From the NCBI GenBank assembly GCA_009835515.1, contig VXXH01000014.1:1-12545 (forward strand): a stretch of DNA of 12,545 nt. Reading direction: 5' to 3'. Position 1 is the first letter of the stretch; every line of letters begins with the position of its first letter. The notes beneath the pieces were generated by a model, which was given only the letters and a program-made list of their open reading frames with translations, was not told the origin of the DNA and searched no databases. Shown here in pieces: positions 1,763 through 12,545 of the stretch. A program made the translations under genes and the position numbers. The stretch is from Candidatus Poribacteria bacterium. GTDB taxonomy: Bacteria > Poribacteria > WGA-4E > WGA-3G.

Positions 1763-1904
1763 TAGTTGTCAGTTGTCAGTACGGTTTTTTTTTCAAAAAA
1801 ACCTTTCGGTTGTCAGTTAAGAGGTTTTCGTTTAACGAGCCCGTCTTGTAACTGACAACTGATGACCGATAACTGAAAACCATTCTCCTGACAACTGATA
1901 ACTA
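1763..1904. repeat. Palindromic heptamer repeat element, copy 1
   Basis: It begins TAGTTGTCAGTTGTCAGT one base after the phosphatase TAA and ends CTGACAACTGATAACTA ten bases before the DUF58 ATG. The left arm is built of AGTTGTC units and the right arm of the complementary GAYAACT units. An A/T hairpin lies at 1783-1803, followed by a second GGTTGTCAGTTAAGAGG block. It fills essentially the whole intergenic space. Function is unknown; folding into a long hairpin in RNA or single-stranded DNA is an inference. Confidence 0.85.
1783..1803. repeat. A/T-rich stem-loop module (G:C variant)
   Basis: Perfect inverted repeat: GG plus seven T, loop TTC, seven A plus CC, flanked by TAC and TTTC as in the other copies. 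Compared with 2914-2932, the second stem pair is G:C instead of A:T and there is one extra T:A pair. It is not a classical rho-independent terminator because it has no G/C-rich stem followed by a U tract. Confidence 0.8.
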
Positions 1905-1914
1905 TTAAAAACAG

Positions 1915-2895
1915 ATGCAACAGAGTTCGACAGTCGGCCGCACATTTTTAGATCCAACAATCCTTGCCCGAATTGGGAATCTTGAATTAATTGCGAAATT
2001 CGTTGTGGAAGGTTTTATCTCAGGGCTACACAAAAGCCCGTATCACGGGTTTAGTGTTGAATTCTCACAGTACCGACAATATATGCCCGGAGACGATACT
2101 AAACATATAGATTGGAAAGCCTACGCCCGCACGGATAGGTACTATATTAAGCAGTTTGAGGAAGAGACGAATCTCAATTGCTATCTGCTTTTAGATACAA
2201 GCGAGTCTATGGCGCATCCGTCAGATGATGAGCAGACAAACGATGCCACGACAGACGGAAACGGTGCAGGGGCACCAAGGCTGACGAAGTTGAGATATTC
2301 GAGTTTCCTCATCGCGTCACTTGCCTATTTTATGGCGAAGCAGCGCGATGCAGTTGGATTCGCCTATTTTGATGATGCGCTTCGCCAGTACCTCCCAGCG
2401 CGAAGTAGCACATCACATTTACACTCAATTTTGCTCACATTGGAGACGTTACAGACAACAAAAAATACAAGGATGGGAACGCCACTCCATCAAATTGCTG
2501 AACGTCTTACCAAACGCGGATTGGTACTTTTCATCTCAGATCTCTACGATGAAAATCATGAGGAGGTCATCGCCGGATTAGAACATCTCCGTTATGAAGG
2601 ACACGAAGTTATCGTCTTCCATGTGCTTGCCCAACAGGAGCTTGAGTTTGCTAACTTTGAGACAGGACGGAGTTCGGAAGCACTTATCCGATTTATTGAT
2701 TCAGAAAACGACGCTGAGATTATCACAACCCCGCAAGCGATTCAGGAGAGTTATCTGAGCAATTTCAACGACTTTCTGGATACCTATAGGCTCGCGCTGC
2801 GACAAGCGGATATTGATTACAACATCATAACAACAGCAACCCCGATTGATCTTGCCCTCGCTTCTTATCTTGCTAAGCGGCAAGGTGTCCTCTAA
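1915..2895 (+). CDS. DUF58 / von Willebrand A-like domain protein
   Basis: The 326-residue protein carries the DUF58 signature: G45-F-S-V-E-F-S-Q-Y-R, then P58-G-D-D-x(4)-D66-W-K-A-Y-A-R-T-D, followed by the FEEETN stretch. This leads into a vWA-like fold with a MIDAS-type D94-T-S-E-S-M motif. No signal peptide or membrane segment is seen, so it is probably cytoplasmic. DUF58 proteins usually sit beside MoxR-type AAA+ ATPases and BatA/BatB membrane proteins; their biochemical role is not settled. Here the next gene is BatA-like, which supports a shared module, but no MoxR gene lies in the window. Residues about 102-120 (rich in D, T, N, G) form a low-complexity loop after the MIDAS motif. The ATG at 1915 has no Shine-Dalgarno sequence: the leader is the right end of repeat copy 1 plus the A/T-rich CTATTAAAAACAG. 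Confidence 0.93.
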   Translation: MQQSSTVGRTFLDPTILARIGNLELIAKFVVEGFISGLHKSPYHGFSVEFSQYRQYMPGDDTKHIDWKAYARTDRYYIKQFEEETNLNCYLLLDTSESMAHPSDDEQTNDATTDGNGAGAPRLTKLRYSSFLIASLAYFMAKQRDAVGFAYFDDALRQYLPARSSTSHLHSILLTLETLQTTKNTRMGTPLHQIAERLTKRGLVLFISDLYDENHEEVIAGLEHLRYEGHEVIVFHVLAQQELEFANFETGRSSEALIRFIDSENDAEIITTPQAIQESYLSNFNDFLDTYRLALRQADIDYNIITTATPIDLALASYLAKRQGVL

Positions 2896-2900
2896 GGGGA

Positions 2901-3012
2901 TAGTTGTCAGTACGATTTTTTTTCAAAAAATCTTTCAGTTATCAGTTGTCAGTTAAGAGGGTTTTGAACTATCATACATCTCTTTTACCTGATCCCCGAA
3001 GACTGGTAACTA
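2901..3012. repeat. Palindromic heptamer repeat element, copy 2
   Basis: The left end TAGTTGTCAGTACGATTT starts five bases after the DUF58 stop codon. An A/T hairpin follows at 2914-2932, then AGTTATCAGTTGTCAGTTAA with AAGAGG at 2955-2960. A CTCTTTT block at 2980-2986 partly mirrors AAGAG. The right end is a reduced arm, CTGGTAACTA at 3003-3012. The remaining 37 bases before the next ATG are A-rich and I recognise nothing in them. Confidence 0.8.
2914..2932. repeat. A/T-rich stem-loop module
   Basis: GATTTTTTTTCAAAAAATC is a perfect 8-bp stem (GATTTTTT with AAAAAATC) with loop TTC. The same 19 bases recur at 12511-12529, again directly after a repeat left arm. Confidence 0.85.
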
Positions 3013-3049
3013 AAGACGCTAAAAACGGAACAAAACTTAATAGTTAAAA

Positions 3050-5194: not shown

Positions 5195-5350
5195 TGGTTA
5201 TCAGTTATCGGTTGTCAGTTTTCAGTAAGAATAGTTGTCAGTTGTCGGTTATCAGTTATCAGTTAAAAGAGGGTTGGGACAATTCAAAAGGTCTCTTTCT
5301 GAAAACTGAAAGATTTTTCTGCGAAAAATCGGACTGAAAACTGATAACCA
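5195..5350. repeat. Palindromic heptamer repeat element, copy 3 (compound)
   Basis: A perfect 10-bp terminal inverted repeat, TGGTTATCAG at 5195-5204 and CTGATAACCA at 5341-5350, bounds the element. Inside are two runs of AGTTRTC-type units (5197-5226 and 5232-5264), a central AAAGAG (5266-5271) / CTCTTT (5293-5298) stem, and the A/T hairpin at 5312-5330 in inverted orientation. It starts nine bases after the BatA-like stop and ends shortly before the AAGGAG of the next gene, so it fills the space. Confidence 0.85.
5312..5330. repeat. A/T-rich stem-loop module, inverted copy
   Basis: Stem GATTTTT / AAAAATC with loop CTGCG. On the other strand the flanks read CAGTCC-stem-TTTCAGTTTTCAG, matching the CAGTAC-stem-TTTCAGTT flanks of the copies at 2914 and 10638. 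The module is therefore present here in reverse orientation. Confidence 0.75.
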
Positions 5351-5365
5351 TTCCAAGGAGAAATC

Positions 5366-6476: not shown

Positions 6477-6478
6477 AT

Positions 6479-6484
6479 GGGGAG
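6479..6484 (+). promoter_or_regulatory. Ribosome binding site selecting the rph start
   Basis: GGGGAG followed by AAAA and then ATG at 6489. This favours the ATG at 6489 over the in-frame ATG at 6477, which directly follows the TAG of the previous gene and would contain this site within its own coding sequence. Confidence 0.6.
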
Positions 6485-6488
6485 AAAA

Positions 6489-7247
6489 ATGGCGAGAGAG
6501 GATGGACGGCGGCCAGATGAGTTGCGGCCGGTTACGATTAAACGACATTATATCAAACATGCAGAGGGTTCAGTCCTCGTTGCAACAGGGGACACCCGTA
6601 TTATATGTACAGCCTCCGTTATTGACCAGCAGCCCCGGTTCATGCGCGACCAACGGATCAAGAATAGAGGTTGGGTAACAGCCGAGTACTCGATGTTACC
6701 GCGTTCGACTTCTGAACGGATGCAACGCGAGATAACCCGCGGCGGTGCCAGTGGTAGAACACAAGAGATACAACGTCTCATTGGTCGTTCCTTGCGTGCT
6801 GCGGTAGACTTGTCCGCCTTAGAAGAGCGGACAGTCTGGGTGGATTGTGATGTGATCCAAGCCGATGGTGGCACACGCACCGCATCGATTACAGGTGCGT
6901 TTATCGCACTCTGGGATGCGTGTCAAGGGCTTGTCAAAAGTGGAAGAATCGAAACGTTTCCTATTACCGATAACATTGCTGCAACCAGTGTTGGGCTTGT
7001 CAACGGTGAAGCCTTGTTAGATCTGTGTTATACGGAAGATTCAACAGCCGATGTTGATATGAATATTGTTATGACCGGTAGTGGGCAGTTTATAGAGATA
7101 CAGGGCACAGCAGAGGAGAAACCCTTTTCGCGGGACGATTACAATCAGATGTTGGATCTTGCTGTTGGTGGTATACAACAACTGATCCGATTACAAAATC
7201 GGATGATGTTGGAGGATTTAGATGAAGCTGGTATTGGCGACGCGTAA
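6489..7247 (+). CDS. rph: Ribonuclease PH
   Basis: A 252-residue phosphorolytic 3'-5' exoribonuclease that trims tRNA 3' ends. Family blocks run in order: [16 protein letters not shown] start, [70 protein letters not shown] and [29 protein letters not shown]130 in GGTRTAS corresponds to the phosphate-binding arginine (E. coli R126), and D184 and D190 to the catalytic/metal aspartates (E. coli D178, D184). The length is normal. I chose ATG 6489 because MxxDGRxxDELRP aligns with the start of known RNase PH proteins and GGGGAG precedes it; ATG 6477 would add four residues. The 3' end overlaps rdgB by 26 bases. The rph-rdgB order is common, as in Bacillus subtilis. Confidence 0.96.
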
Positions 7248-7887
7248 CCAAGGCAAGGTACGGGAGCTCGCGGAGATGCTGAGGAGTTATCAGTTGTCAG
7301 TTATCAGTTGTCAGTCACAAGAGGTGTGCGATTCACCAGATACCTCTTTAACTGGTAATCGAGAACTCATAGTTGATAACCAGTATGAGGTGATCTCTTT
7401 GAACGCCTATCCTGATGCGCCAGAGGTTATTGAGGACGGAAAAACATATATGGAGAATGCCGCTAAAAAAGCGTCTGTCATTGCGCAATACACAGGTTAT
7501 TCGACGCTCGCTGATGATGCTGGCTTAGAGGTAGATGCGCTCAAGGGTGCGCCCGGTATCAACTCTAAACGTTGGGCAGGTGAAGACGCTACGGATGCGA
7601 TCCGGATTGCGAAACTTCTTCAAGCACTTGAAGGTGTTACGGATCGGCGTGCCCGTTTTGTTGCCGCGATTGCAGTCGTCCACCCTGATGCTACACCCGA
7701 AGGCGTTCTCGGTATTTGTGAGGGATACATCAGACACGCGCCGGTAGGAGAGGGCGGGTTTGGGTATGATCCCGTGTTTGTGCCGGACGGTTACGATCAG
7801 ACTTTCGCAGAATTGGGTGAAGAGATAAAAAATCAGATTAGTCATAGAGCCAAGGCGTTAGAAAAAGCACTTGCTTTGTTTTTATAG
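7222..7887 (+). CDS. rdgB: dITP/XTP pyrophosphatase (RdgB/HAM1 family) with repeat-derived insertion
   Basis: A house-cleaning nucleotidase that hydrolyses dITP/XTP to monophosphate and pyrophosphate, keeping deaminated purines out of nucleic acids. Motifs: [12 protein letters not shown] (5-16), YMENAAKKA (76-84), [17 protein letters not shown] with D98/D99 matching E. coli D68/D69, GGFGYDPVF (178-186) and SHRAKAL (207-213). At 221 residues it is longer than the roughly 197 usual. Counting motif offsets against E. coli RdgB puts about 31 extra residues between MLR21 and EVISLN (56-61). These residues ([11 protein letters not shown]...) are encoded by a copy of the intergenic heptamer repeat. 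The frame and all catalytic motifs are intact, so the gene is probably functional; the insertion falls between the first helix and the next strand, likely a surface loop. GGAGG at 7211-7215 sits six bases before the ATG, inside rph. Confidence 0.95.
7285..7385. repeat. Palindromic heptamer repeat element, copy 4, inside rdgB and translated
   Basis: Two exact tandem copies of AGTTATCAGTTGTC (7285-7298 and 7299-7312) plus AGT form the left arm. AAGAGGT (7319-7325) and ACCTCTT (7342-7348) form the central stem. CAGATACCTCTTTAACTG (7337-7354) is identical to 10756-10773 in an intergenic copy. The right arm is degenerate (ACTGGTAATCGAG, GTTGATAACCAGT). The reading frame of rdgB passes through without a stop. 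Confidence 0.85.
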
Positions 7888-8042
7888 TTATCAGTTGTCA
7901 GTTGTCAGTTGTCAGTCGGGTTGCGATTGCTGATCATCTTTTTGCAACAGTTGTGGCTCAAATGGGATAGCGACGGTTACCAAAGGATGTTGATGCGTCA
8001 GAGACCTCTTATCTGGAAACTGATAACCGATAACTGACAACT
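7885..8042. repeat. Palindromic heptamer repeat element, copy 5
   Basis: The left arm starts with the rdgB stop codon itself (TAGTTATCAG) and holds four AGTTRTC units to about 7913. The right arm at 8019-8042 (ACTGATAACC, GATAACTGACAACT) is complementary. ACCTCTTATC at 8004-8013 resembles the central stem sequence. The interior, about 7917-8000, is not repeat-like; I see no RNA gene or reading frame of interest in it. No A/T hairpin module is present in this copy. Confidence 0.8.
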
Positions 8043-8059
8043 CTAAAATTGAGGAGAAA

Positions 8060-8617
8060 ATGGCAGTACTTAACGATTTACGCAACGGGTTGGTTATCCG
8101 ACTCAACGACACTATTTACACGATAGTGAATTGCCAGCATGTGAAACCTGGGAAGGGCAGTGCCTTCGCACGAACAAAAATTAAGCGTGTCACCGATGGT
8201 GCTGTTTTAGATCGCACCTTCCGTTCCAATGAGACTATCGAGACCGTCAGGCTTATGGATCACAAGATGCAGTATATGTACCGAGATGGCGATGTGCTAT
8301 GGTTTATGGACAACGAAACATTCGAGCAGCACACGCTACCGATAAGTCTTGTTGAAGATAGTTTGAAGTTTCTGAAAGAAGGAGAGACTGTCACTGTCAA
8401 AATGGACGGACAGGTACCACTCGCGGTTGAACTTCCGAACTTCGTTGAACTTCAAATCGTTGAAACCGATCCCGGCTTGCGGGGTGATACCGTCAGTGGT
8501 GGTTCCAAACGTGCTACGCTTGAGACAGGTGGCGTTGTTAACGTTCCACTTTTTGTGCAAAACGAAACGCGTATCAAAGTTGACACGCGGACCGGAAAAT
8601 ATGTAGAAAGGATATAA
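8060..8617 (+). CDS. efp: Elongation factor P
   Basis: A 185-residue three-domain translation factor that binds between the P and E sites of the ribosome and relieves stalling at polyproline. The KOW-like N-terminal domain (about 1-62) contains the tip loop KPGKGSAF; K32 corresponds to the modified lysine of E. coli EF-P (K34), so a lysine-type modification, not arginine rhamnosylation, would be expected. The middle OB domain (about 65-128) includes MYRDGDVLWFMDNETFEQ, and the C-terminal OB domain (about 130-185) has the family signature ETDPGLRGDT followed by the conserved KRATLETG and a terminal DTRTGKYVER. The length is standard. GAGGAG at 8051-8056 precedes the ATG by three bases. efp followed by accB-accC is a widely conserved order. 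Confidence 0.97.
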   Translation: MAVLNDLRNGLVIRLNDTIYTIVNCQHVKPGKGSAFARTKIKRVTDGAVLDRTFRSNETIETVRLMDHKMQYMYRDGDVLWFMDNETFEQHTLPISLVEDSLKFLKEGETVTVKMDGQVPLAVELPNFVELQIVETDPGLRGDTVSGGSKRATLETGGVVNVPLFVQNETRIKVDTRTGKYVERI

Positions 8618-8712
8618 TAGTTATCAGTTACCAGTGGCCAGTACCCAGTTACCAGTTAAAGACTGGGAAACTGAAACACTGTTAACTGTTAACTGTTAAC
8701 TGGTAACTGATA
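8618..8712. repeat. Palindromic heptamer repeat element, copy 6 (variant units)
   Basis: A perfect 13-bp terminal inverted repeat, TATCAGTTACCAG at 8622-8634 and CTGGTAACTGATA at 8700-8712. The units are AGTTACC, AGTGGCC and AGTACCC on the left and CTGTTAA three times plus CTGGTAA on the right, still with a 7-base period. Its last base is the A of the accB start codon. Confidence 0.85.
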
Positions 8713-9233
8713 TGCGTCAAAACAGACCCAAGGATAAATCTCAATCTGGTGAACAAGACTATAGTGATATCCTTGAACTCGTTGAACGGTTGGCAGAGGT
8801 GCTCGACCGTGCGGATCTCACGGAGGTCCGCGTTCGGGACAACGAATTTGAGGTGCAAGTCTCCAGATACCGTGGTAACCTGGGCGGCTATGAGCGAATG
8901 CCTTCACCACAGCCAACCGAGACAGGTATGGCGGTGGGAACACCGCATCTGCCGGGAGAAAAGGTGGAAGTGGAGGTGGATGGTGATGGACAGAGTGTCT
9001 ACATCAGCGCGCCGATGCCAGCGCGTTTCTATTGTGCGCCTGCTCCTGATGAGTCGCCTTTTGTGCAAGTTGGGGATACGGTTAGCACGGGTGAACCTGT
9101 TGGGATGCTCGAAGTTATGAAGACTTACAATCCTGTGGAGGCTCCGTTTAACTGCGAAATTTTAGAAATTCTTGCTGAAGATGGCGAAGCGGTTGAATAT
9201 TCGCAACCTTTGTTCCGCGTGAAACAGTTGTAG
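8712..9233 (+). CDS. accB: Biotin carboxyl carrier protein of acetyl-CoA carboxylase
   Basis: A 173-residue carrier that holds biotin and shuttles the carboxyl group from the biotin carboxylase to the carboxyltransferase, the first step of fatty acid synthesis. The N-terminal helical region (DILELVERLAEVLDRADLTEVRVRDNEFEVQVSR, about 14-48) is typical of AccB. It is followed by a linker of about 45 residues and the C-terminal biotinyl domain (about 95-173) with SAPMPARFY, PFVQVGDTVSTGEPVGMLEVMK and the second half-barrel. The biotin-accepting lysine is K137. The motif reads VMKT where MKM is usual. No Shine-Dalgarno sequence is visible: repeat copy 6 runs right up to the ATG. accC follows 31 bases downstream with no repeat between, so the two are probably co-transcribed. 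Confidence 0.96.
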   Translation: MRQNRPKDKSQSGEQDYSDILELVERLAEVLDRADLTEVRVRDNEFEVQVSRYRGNLGGYERMPSPQPTETGMAVGTPHLPGEKVEVEVDGDGQSVYISAPMPARFYCAPAPDESPFVQVGDTVSTGEPVGMLEVMKTYNPVEAPFNCEILEILAEDGEAVEYSQPLFRVKQL

Positions 9234-9264: not shown

Positions 9265-10620
9265 ATGATAAAAAAGATACTAATAGCAAATCGCGGTGAG
9301 ATCGCTGTTCGCGTTATCCGAGCCTGTAAAGACATGGGGATTAAGACGGTCGCTATCTTCTCGACCGCGGATGAAGATGCCCTGCACGTTAAATATGCTG
9401 ACGAGGCGTACTGCATCGGCCCGCCGCCTTCAGCAGAGAGTTATCTCAAATATGCGAATATCATCGCAGTTGCGGATTTCGCGAATGTCAACGCCATTCA
9501 TCCAGGTACGGGGTTTCTCGCTGAGGACGCGCAGTTTGCCGAGATTTGTGAGGCACACGAAATAAAGTTTATTGGACCTTCTGTCACGAATATTGCGACT
9601 ATGGGGAATAAGGTGCAGGCACGTGAGACCGTAGCAAAAGCGGGCTTAAAACTTGTACCGGGTAGCCGAAGTGGCAAACGCAAAAACAGCAAAAAGGGGA
9701 CAGTTGAGACAGCTGACGAAGCCGCGCAGCTTGCAGAGAAGATTGGCTATCCTGTTGGGATCAAAGCCGTTGCTGGTGGCGGGGGGCGCGGTATCCGAAT
9801 CGCTGAGAACCGTCCCAGCCTGTTAACCCTTTTTCACACTGCGAAGGCAGAAGGCGAAGCCTCTTTTGGGAACGGAGATGTCTACATTGAAAAATGGATT
9901 GAAGAGGCGCGGCATATTGAGGTCCAGATTTTAGGGGATTTACACGGCAATGTCGTCCACTTCGGTGAACGTGAATGCTCTATTCAACGTAAACAGCAAA
10001 AACTCCTTGAAGAAGCACCCGCTGCCTCTATTCCATCGAAACTCCGTTCAGAAATCTGTAAAGCTGCCGCGAAAGCCGCGAAAGCCATCGGCTATACAAA
10101 CGCAGGAACTATTGAGTTTGTTGTTGACAAAGAGGATAACTACTATTTCTTGGAGATGAATACGCGGATTCAGGTGGAACATACTATCTCCGAGAGCATA
10201 ACCGGTACTGATTTGATCAAAGAACAGATCCGGCTGGCAATGGGGGAGCAGCTTGGGTACAATCAATCCGATATTCAGATTCAGGGGCATGCCATTGAGT
10301 GTAGAATTAACGCTGAGGACCCCTTGAACAACTTCATGCCTTCTCCAGGGCTTATCACAAATTACCATCCACCGGGAGGTATCGGTATCCGGGTTGACGG
10401 CTGTATCTACACCGGATACACTGTGTCGCCGCACTACGATTCACTCATTGCGAAACTCATTGCGTCCGGTAGGGATCGGGAAGAAGCGATTGCCCGGTTG
10501 AAGCGAGCCCTGTCCGAATTCGAGATTGAAGGCATAAAGACGACAATCCCACTCTTCCGCAATATTCTCAACGACGAACGTTTTCGCAGTGGAACCATTT
10601 TTACGAACTTCTTAGAGTAG
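9265..10620 (+). CDS. accC: Biotin carboxylase subunit of acetyl-CoA carboxylase
   Basis: A 451-residue ATP-grasp enzyme that carboxylates biotin on AccB using ATP and bicarbonate. Order: pre-ATP-grasp domain (KILIANRGEIAVRVIRACK, about 4-110); ATP-grasp with K116, K167 and the glycine loop AGGGGRG (170-176); catalytic EMNTRIQVEH with R301, Q303, V304, E305 (E. coli R292, Q294, V295, E296); ECRINAED with R347 (E. coli R338); then the C-terminal domain to residue 451. The length is normal. Unusual points: HPGTGFLAED has T82 where HPGYGF is the rule; EHTISE replaces EHPVTE; MGNK replaces MGDK; and a lysine-rich stretch GKRKNSKKG (137-145) makes the loop after VPGS about eight residues longer than in E. 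coli. Only a weak GAGA lies upstream of the ATG. Partner of the preceding accB. Confidence 0.96.
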   Translation: MIKKILIANRGEIAVRVIRACKDMGIKTVAIFSTADEDALHVKYADEAYCIGPPPSAESYLKYANIIAVADFANVNAIHPGTGFLAEDAQFAEICEAHEIKFIGPSVTNIATMGNKVQARETVAKAGLKLVPGSRSGKRKNSKKGTVETADEAAQLAEKIGYPVGIKAVAGGGGRGIRIAENRPSLLTLFHTAKAEGEASFGNGDVYIEKWIEEARHIEVQILGDLHGNVVHFGERECSIQRKQQKLLEEAPAASIPSKLRSEICKAAAKAAKAIGYTNAGTIEFVVDKEDNYYFLEMNTRIQVEHTISESITGTDLIKEQIRLAMGEQLGYNQSDIQIQGHAIECRINAEDPLNNFMPSPGLITNYHPPGGIGIRVDGCIYTGYTVSPHYDSLIAKLIASGRDREEAIARLKRALSEFEIEGIKTTIPLFRNILNDERFRSGTIFTNFLE

Positions 10621-10801
10621 TTGTCAGTTGTCAGTACGATTTTTTCTCCGAAAAAATCTTTCAGTTTGCTTCGCAGTGAGAAAAAGAGACTTTGTGATTA
10701 TCAAAACCTCTTTTACAGGTCATCGGTTTTCGGTTAAAGAGGGGTACGGTTTAATCAGATACCTCTTTAACTGACAACTGACAACTGAAAACTGATAACT
10801 A
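10618..10801. repeat. Palindromic heptamer repeat element, copy 7 (compound)
   Basis: The left arm begins with the accC stop codon (TAGTTGTCAG). It holds the A/T hairpin at 10638-10658, an AAAAGAG (10682-) / CTCTTTT (10708-10714) pair, then a perfect 10-bp stem GTTAAAGAGG (10733-10742) / CCTCTTTAAC (10762-10771). The right arm CTGACAACTGACAACTG runs on to CTGATAACTA, ending at 10801. A further half copy CTGACAACTGAAAACTA lies at 10809-10825. The whole space between accC and the next gene is repeat-derived. Confidence 0.85.
10638..10658. repeat. A/T-rich stem-loop module (5-base loop)
   Basis: Stem GATTTTTT with AAAAAATC around loop CTCCG, in the same position after the left arm as the copies at 2914 and 12511. 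The stem is conserved while the loop differs (CTCCG rather than TTC). Confidence 0.8.
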
Positions 10802-10835
10802 TTTCCTCTGACAACTGAAAACTATTAAAACTGAT

Positions 10836-12485: not shown

Positions 12486-12498
12486 CCATCAGCTGAAC

Positions 12499-12545
12499 AG
12501 TTGTCAGTACGATTTTTTTTCAAAAAATCTTTCGGTTGTCAGTTG
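12499..12545. repeat. Palindromic heptamer repeat element, copy 8 (cut by window end)
   Basis: CAGTTGTCAGTACG, the A/T hairpin at 12511-12529 and then CTTTCGGTTGTCAGTTG closely follow the left half of copies 1 and 2. The right arm lies outside the window. Confidence 0.8.
12511..12529. repeat. A/T-rich stem-loop module
   Basis: Identical over 19 bases to the copy at 2914-2932, with the same TAC upstream and TTTC downstream. Confidence 0.85.

Follow-up and report, generated by a model that had tools for sequence, protein, structure and literature searches.

Dispersed palindromic repeats located in frame in conserved protein genes were described as Rickettsia palindromic elements (RPEs), which were reported from 19 reading frames and also have intergenic copies (PMC2229807, PMC3733652), and intragenic GTAG/CGTC REPs have been published as well (PMC3733652). 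Bacterial MITEs, such as ERIC, RUP and Correia, are short elements with terminal inverted repeats and no gene of their own, some of which are fused in frame; a target duplication is given for Correia, ERIC, RUP and YPAL (PMC2229807). TAACTGA repeats were reported from Beggiatoaceae, Thiocystis, Cyanobacteria and Bacteroidetes; one of their orientations is stop-free, with the translation LSVISYQ, and the other contains stops in all frames (MacGregor 2015, PMC4679880). Some copies lie in ORFs, mainly at protein ends, and those of the BOGUAY genome are mostly located directly upstream of start codons; Poribacteria do not appear in the available text of that study (PMC4679880).

Among the matches listed from the open-licence literature, as judged by titles and abstract openings, no publication on such repeats in Poribacteria was found, and a search of the open-licence literature returned none on miniature inverted-repeat elements in Poribacteria. 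The way in which protein-coding palindromes enter genes is, to our knowledge, unsettled. Here, a repeat located in frame in a poribacterial rdgB gene is described together with a shorter palindrome found at a second position of the same gene in related species.

The rdgB gene and its insert

The window (the whole stretch of DNA that was analysed, 12,545 nucleotides) is contig G000:C335 of genome G000, a 4.85-Mb assembly of 881 contigs. Labels beginning with G, P and L denote genomes, RdgB proteins and loci, respectively, and 38 genomes belong to the same genus as G000. The window contains the following features.

7222..7887, + strand: rdgB, encoding XTP/dITP diphosphatase, 221 codons, insert-bearing (open ORF, Pfam; sole rdgB match in G000)
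7285..7383, + strand: repeat-derived insert at rdgB site 1, codons 22-54 (outer limits approximate, net gain of ~31 residues)
7285..7315, + strand: left arm of the insert, heptamers AGTTATC/AGTTGTC, stop-free in the reading used
7319..7348, + strand: stem of the insert with its loop, AAGAGGT at 7319-7325 and ACCTCTT at 7342-7348
7337..7354, + strand: 18-base exact match to 10756-10773 in an intergenic copy
7349..7383, + strand: right arm of the insert, degenerate, without a stop in the rdgB frame
7699..7701, + strand: codon 160 (GAA), rdgB site 2, empty here and replaced by a 57-bp palindrome in relatives
1763..1910, no strand assigned: intergenic palindromic element with heptamer arms (fold z -6.9)
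2894..3021, no strand assigned: heptamer element, intergenic
5196..5356, no strand assigned: heptamer element, intergenic
7886..8045, no strand assigned: heptamer arms 3' of rdgB, intergenic (fold of 7886-8034 not significant, z -0.93)
8605..8718, no strand assigned: heptamer element of the AGTTACC type, intergenic
10618..10830, no strand assigned: heptamer element with the 18-base match, intergenic
12491..12545, no strand assigned: heptamer element truncated by the contig end

The initial annotation of the window had proposed that a repeat element was inserted in frame in rdgB and translated, with a net gain of about 31 residues and all catalytic motifs kept. The ORF at 7222-7887 is indeed open and the repeat of the insert was found genome-wide; that the insert is translated we infer from the preserved frame. 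The details of its composition were confirmed, since the 14-mers at 7285-7298 and 7299-7312 are identical, the two halves of the stem were found at the positions listed above, and the 18-mer occurs at just two sites in the window. The gain in length is borne out by the Pfam Ham1p_like match, in which residues 3-217 correspond to profile positions 1-184 (a surplus of ~31 residues), and by the offset relative to E. coli RdgB (1k7k), which shifts by 31 between a weak N-terminal match and the match from residue 70. The RdgB core is intact, and invariant catalytic-type columns are retained in a 43-sequence alignment. As the loop differs in all relatives, the limits given for the heptamer insertion at site 1 are approximate. 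An upstream ORF (6477-7247) overlaps the start of rdgB by 26 bases (7222-7247).

A heptamer repeat in the genus

The insert region matches at least 50 places in its own genome at E <= 0.001, itself included. The 15-mer CAGTTRTCAGTTRTC occurs 72 times per strand in G000, where the reversed-pattern control gave 0, and is present in all 38 genomes of the genus, with 3 to 157 matches each over both strands and 0 or 1 for the control. Outside the genus it is sparse, with 1 to 11 matches in 16 of the 46 other genomes of the phylum. A looser scan detected 22 heptamer elements in 296 kb of G000 (window counted in), including 2 within ORFs. In 400 kb of G005 it detected 21, and one of the 2 located within ORFs there is unreliable (the ORF crosses unread bases); a shuffled control yielded 1 element. 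Another 42 elements, 4 of them within ORFs, came from 199 kb of contigs chosen for having matches. Tandem direct repeats of TAACTGA or its reverse complement are present here, and the rdgB copy is in the stop-free orientation, its right arm having drifted to a form without in-frame stops. Folding is pronounced for the intergenic element at 1763-1910 and modest for the rdgB copy (z -2.57).

In-frame heptamer elements are not confined to rdgB. One was found in a TlyA-type methyltransferase, whose FtsJ match spreads 233 residues over 179 profile positions; another, in the opposite orientation, in RecD2; and a third in a protein of 849 aa that lacks Pfam matches and carries the same composite as the rdgB genes of G004 and G005. 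Matches to tlyA were obtained in 36 of the 38 genomes of the genus, the open frames ranging from 286 to 380 aa. A variable loop of the rdgB kind is seen in the 28 sequences that could be used; the loci of G011 and G025 were unread, and G015 was left out before tree construction (wrong ORF). The tlyA loci L226-L255 combine this hypervariable, repeat-filled loop with a second variable stretch upstream. A repeat-like peptide was also noted in inserts of both RdgB (GETPKQKH; P0029, P0032 and P0039) and TlyA (AETPKQRPSSKN or AEIPKQKPSSKN; G003 and G004).

The site-1 loop across relatives

The rdgB gene was found in 56 of 60 relatives. Orthologues lacking the insertion exist: among 34 congeneric RdgBs, the site-1 loop is 7-9 aa long in 15 and 11-50 aa in 19. 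Relatives do carry equally long, unrelated sequences at this position, which the initial annotation had counted against an insertion; read by eye, however, they mostly belong to other repeat families, and the 15 short loops stand beside them. The longer loops contain, by eye, heptamer arms of three types (AGTTATC, GGCTATC and ACCGCGA), GTAG-type palindromes recognized by tag in G015 and G020, and other palindromes in G024 and in G010 and G030. At site 1 of G004, G005 and G011, a 54-bp palindrome with TTGACC ends is nested in a heptamer arm, again by eye. No family could be assigned to G033 or to parts of other inserts. Longer site-1 loops that do not obviously consist of repeats also occur in two genomes from outside the genus, G038 and G048, and long loops can thus arise otherwise. 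Site 1 is therefore a loop that tolerates many repeat families and not the home of one element.

Un-nested and nested forms coexist among the 120 further RdgB proteins listed of 1838 found, namely P0013 (REPITDNQYEV) and P0012 (REPIT-LTKNSSTDNFAKARVLGQ-NQYEV), as if the palindrome had taken the place of the D codon. Repeats nested in repeats were also observed in P0018 and P0027, where a VRAGLPSPYG/VRAGLPTPYG element (GTAG-type by peptide) lies within the centre of the heptamer element. Some RdgBs (P0041 and those of G004 and G027) appear as mosaics of the N-terminal half of one clade and the C-terminal half of another, suggesting interspecies recombination.

The TTGACC palindrome

The palindrome is 54-57 bp long (TTGACCAAGAAC...GTTCTTGGTCAA), with a 15-bp stem, terminal inverted repeats and no coding gene of its own, and has in-frame copies in several genes, among them rdgB, rsmG and tlyA. 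With the exact stem, 39 copies were found in 16 of the 38 genomes of the genus; when three stem pairs were left free, 87 copies (summed forward counts) were found in 21, and none in the 46 other genomes of the phylum. The free pairs covary, being Watson-Crick in 176 of 189 cells for the 63 distinct sequences among the matches listed (permutation mean 129, maximum 146 in 5000), and stem pair 9 reads C-G in 29 of these sequences and G-C in 27. A stem scan of three genomes revealed mostly paired palindrome ends and a few single ones.

Of the 38 copies examined (of 39), 16 lie in ORFs of at least 200 aa and are flanked on either side by 40 aa or more; the same holds for 21 of the 55 distinct copies examined, orthologous copies being counted separately. 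All 21 in-gene copies are 54 or 57 bp long; of the 34 located outside genes, 27 measure 54 bp and the other 7 measure 51, 53 or 55 bp. According to Pfam, the host genes encode Ham1/RdgB, GidB/RsmG, FtsJ/TlyA, a lactamase-fold hydrolase, ROK, amine oxidase, TPR, VWA and PD40/Omp85-type proteins.

No mobiliser of the palindrome was found within the Y1 family, to which the search was confined; the Y1 (RAYT) transposase received no support as a candidate (0 stem motifs in 30 loci versus 0.8 expected; a weak test). As a separate observation, 18 GTAGGGGC palindrome cores occur in the same 30 Y1 loci versus ~2 expected, with 16 of the 18 clustering around two Y1 transposase genes, L344 (G001) and L359 (G009), in the manner of a REP/RAYT-like pair. 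Viral carriage was not detected either, as one stem variant had 0 exact matches in the viral collection.

Three base pairs are replaced

At three coding sites for which empty orthologues are available, the palindrome replaces exactly 3 bp. At rdgB site 2, a GAA or AAA codon of the nearest empty relatives gives way to TTGACC...GGTCAA; in the lactamase-fold gene the palindrome stands for GTC, GTT or AGC, and in rsmG it is swapped for TTC (TTT in G020). Intergenic copies nested in heptamer arrays agree: of the 55 copies, 11 could be scored, and all 11 lack 3 nt (modulo 7), although the first form of this phase test scored none, other settings 2 of 2 and the looser, margin-based form 11 of 11, the settings having changed between runs. 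No target site duplication was seen at the three coding sites, and the 11 scorable nested copies are consistent with this modulo 7. The preceding base is Y in 52 of 55 copies and the following base R in 54 of 55, a preference that is confounded by the heptamers outside genes. No explanation of the 3-bp rule was found in the phage data and literature searched.

Two ideas were rejected. Arm homology, which had looked suggestive at rdgB site 2 and rsmG, does not appear to guide insertion in general, as the best flank match averaged 7.71/15 versus 7.61 at random positions (38 copies). Empty sites as excision scars were ruled out, the empty codons varying between lineages. Single rsmG sites also deviate: just the 3' part of the palindrome is kept in G029 (L263), and the site of G019 looks doubly filled (L266).

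Probable recurrence at codon 160

One 57-bp allele is present at codon 160 of rdgB in G006, G020, G029 and G027, with 55-57 of 57 bases identical, whereas the flanking third codon positions of these four species are just 0.63-0.78 identical. Three of the four carriers have closer relatives with an empty site, i.e. G000 for G020 (0.91), G004 for G027 (0.92), and G011 (0.78 at third positions) and G005 (0.927 overall) for G029. A 54-bp variant occupies codon 160 in G019, the relatives of which (G018, G025 and G002) are empty. Of the 120 RdgB proteins listed of 1838 found, 5 have the allele; 9 could not be parsed for the span, none of which contains the peptide of the allele. The filled P0057 and the empty P0033 are 97.0% alike in the core, and P0059 and P0047 97.6%. 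The insert at RdgB site 2 of another Poribacteria contig (L086) is different and has an internally repeated peptide, GRGKPVPR/GRGPVPRH.

These data suggest repeated, site-precise acquisition of the palindrome at codon 160. Since the four-gene tree contains a long, unexplained G005 branch, the claim of recurrence is based on the pairwise comparison of flanks. Even with up to 3 mismatches allowed, no further occurrence of the 57-bp allele was found in the 38 genomes, an argument against a genomic donor pool; what is left is transfer between orthologues, by either a homing-like step or very-short-tract recombination.

The main competing explanation, to which we assign somewhat less than an even chance, involves no site-precise re-insertion and posits either a single ancestral insertion followed by many losses or homologous recombination between co-resident species. 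The lack of a visible donor pool fits this explanation, as do signs of interspecies recombination elsewhere in rdgB (P0041 joins a P0045-like N-terminal half to a G004-like C-terminal half) and the case of G006, to which the filled G020 is closer than any of the empty genomes in the comparison (overall 0.893 for G000 and 0.901 for G020). The protein nearest to that of G006, P0010, is also filled; P0010 is the nearest protein to P0045 as well. However, a near-identical insert on diverged flanks is difficult to reconcile with it, and within 30 bases on each side the filled species are no more alike mutually than with their empty sisters. Moreover, the empty codons follow lineage (GAA, AAA and others) and are not scar-like, and the same pattern recurs in the lactamase-fold gene (G010 versus G003, insert 52/54 identical, third positions 0.55) and in rsmG (G004 versus G011, 53/54 and 0.61).

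Proposed explanation and its alternatives

The explanation in which we have high confidence is that of an in-frame hairpin-repeat passenger in rdgB, tolerated in a loop, combined with a palindrome probably acquired more than once at codon 160. A non-autonomous, hairpin-forming repeat would have been inserted in frame in rdgB of a Candidatus Poribacteria sponge symbiont and would persist there as a passenger, either neutral or mildly costly, and several unrelated repeat families would have landed in the same loop in relatives. The palindrome nests in heptamer repeats and also enters genes directly, replacing exactly 3 bp where a comparison is possible; its movement may be driven by a trans-acting factor. 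Tolerance of the rdgB insert would have three reasons: the insert is located in the loop that joins helix 1 to the following strand, the heptamer arm as oriented in rdgB is stop-free in all frames, and frame-breaking or stop-keeping copies would be purged.

The structural model agrees with such a loop. AlphaFold2 (43 sequences) gave a mean pLDDT of 86.9, with 151 residues at 90 or above; residues 27-52 of the insert, at pLDDT <50 beside the confident core, are predicted to be disordered, and in the model the insert follows helix 10-28 and precedes strand 56-59. That the insert is kept for a function, as a useful RdgB loop or as an mRNA hairpin tuning expression, appears improbable. Its dN/dS is below 1 in three pairs (0.33, 0.41 and 0.27, versus 0.11, 0.08 and 0.06 for the core) and few housekeeping genes receive insertions recurrently, both of which would suit a function; however, these pairs have common ancestry and few changes, the insert is predicted to be disordered, 15 of 34 species do without it, and the families and lengths found at the site are interchangeable. 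The dN/dS values point to weak constraint at most.

Growth of the heptamer stretch in place by replication slippage could account for arrays differing by 7-bp units (G011 has three heptamers' worth of codons fewer than G005), but is very improbable, given that the insert also has the AAGAGGT/ACCTCTT centre and the 18-mer shared with an intergenic copy, and that the same composite occurs in the unrelated 849-aa protein. An assembly or binning artefact, conceivable for a 12.5-kb contig of a fragmented assembly in which repeats invite mis-joins, is scarcely credible in view of closely similar inserts in the single-contig 6.66-Mb genome G005 and in other protein clusters (e.g. P0003, P0005 and P0010).

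Beyond the passenger explanation, the TTGACC palindrome may tentatively, and with more doubt than confidence, be regarded as a new class of minimal mobile element. Such a homing-cassette-like hairpin of 54-57 bp would repeatedly enter fixed positions of housekeeping genes in related species, take the place of exactly 3 bp at a Y-NNN-R target that is roughly symmetric, keep the frame, and spread from orthologue to orthologue without flanking DNA via a putative trans-acting recombinase. The genus combines filled and empty orthologues with an exact junction rule, by which 54 or 57 bp take the place of 3 bp, and a position filled in several species beside empty relatives, and the insertion mechanism is therefore testable. 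Non-coding mobile DNA can be a source of loop growth in conserved enzymes.

Comparison with known systems

In-frame palindromes are, as a kind, already known, and the heptamer has already been published (PMC4679880); as far as the searches go, the new features are the 54-57 bp palindrome, a landing site common to many repeat families, the replacement of 3 bp and the recurrent filling of a single position. The likeness to RPEs noted in the initial annotation holds, in that the poribacterial repeat is also palindromic and occurs both between genes and in frame within conserved genes. It is set apart from RPEs as described by its host, Candidatus Poribacteria instead of Rickettsia, by an apparently different sequence, by its build (heptamer-built arms or a shorter 54-57 bp hairpin), by the several unrelated families in one loop, and by the 3-bp replacement and the reuse of one position, which do not feature in the RPE descriptions available (PMC2229807, PMC3733652).

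The heptamer is that of the TAACTGA repeats, since the reverse complement of AGTTATC, when rotated, gives TAACTGA; here, unlike in the repeats described, the heptamers serve as arms on both sides of a stem, giving palindromes within a conserved enzyme. The GTAG-type palindromes at rdgB site 1 of G015 and G020, which are not of the window's family, may be counterparts of GTAG REPs. In contrast to GTAG REP/RAYT pairs, the TTGACC palindrome showed no link to the 30 Y1 loci. With MITEs it shares its short length, terminal inverted repeats, lack of a gene and in-frame positions, but it replaces 3 bp with no duplication seen.
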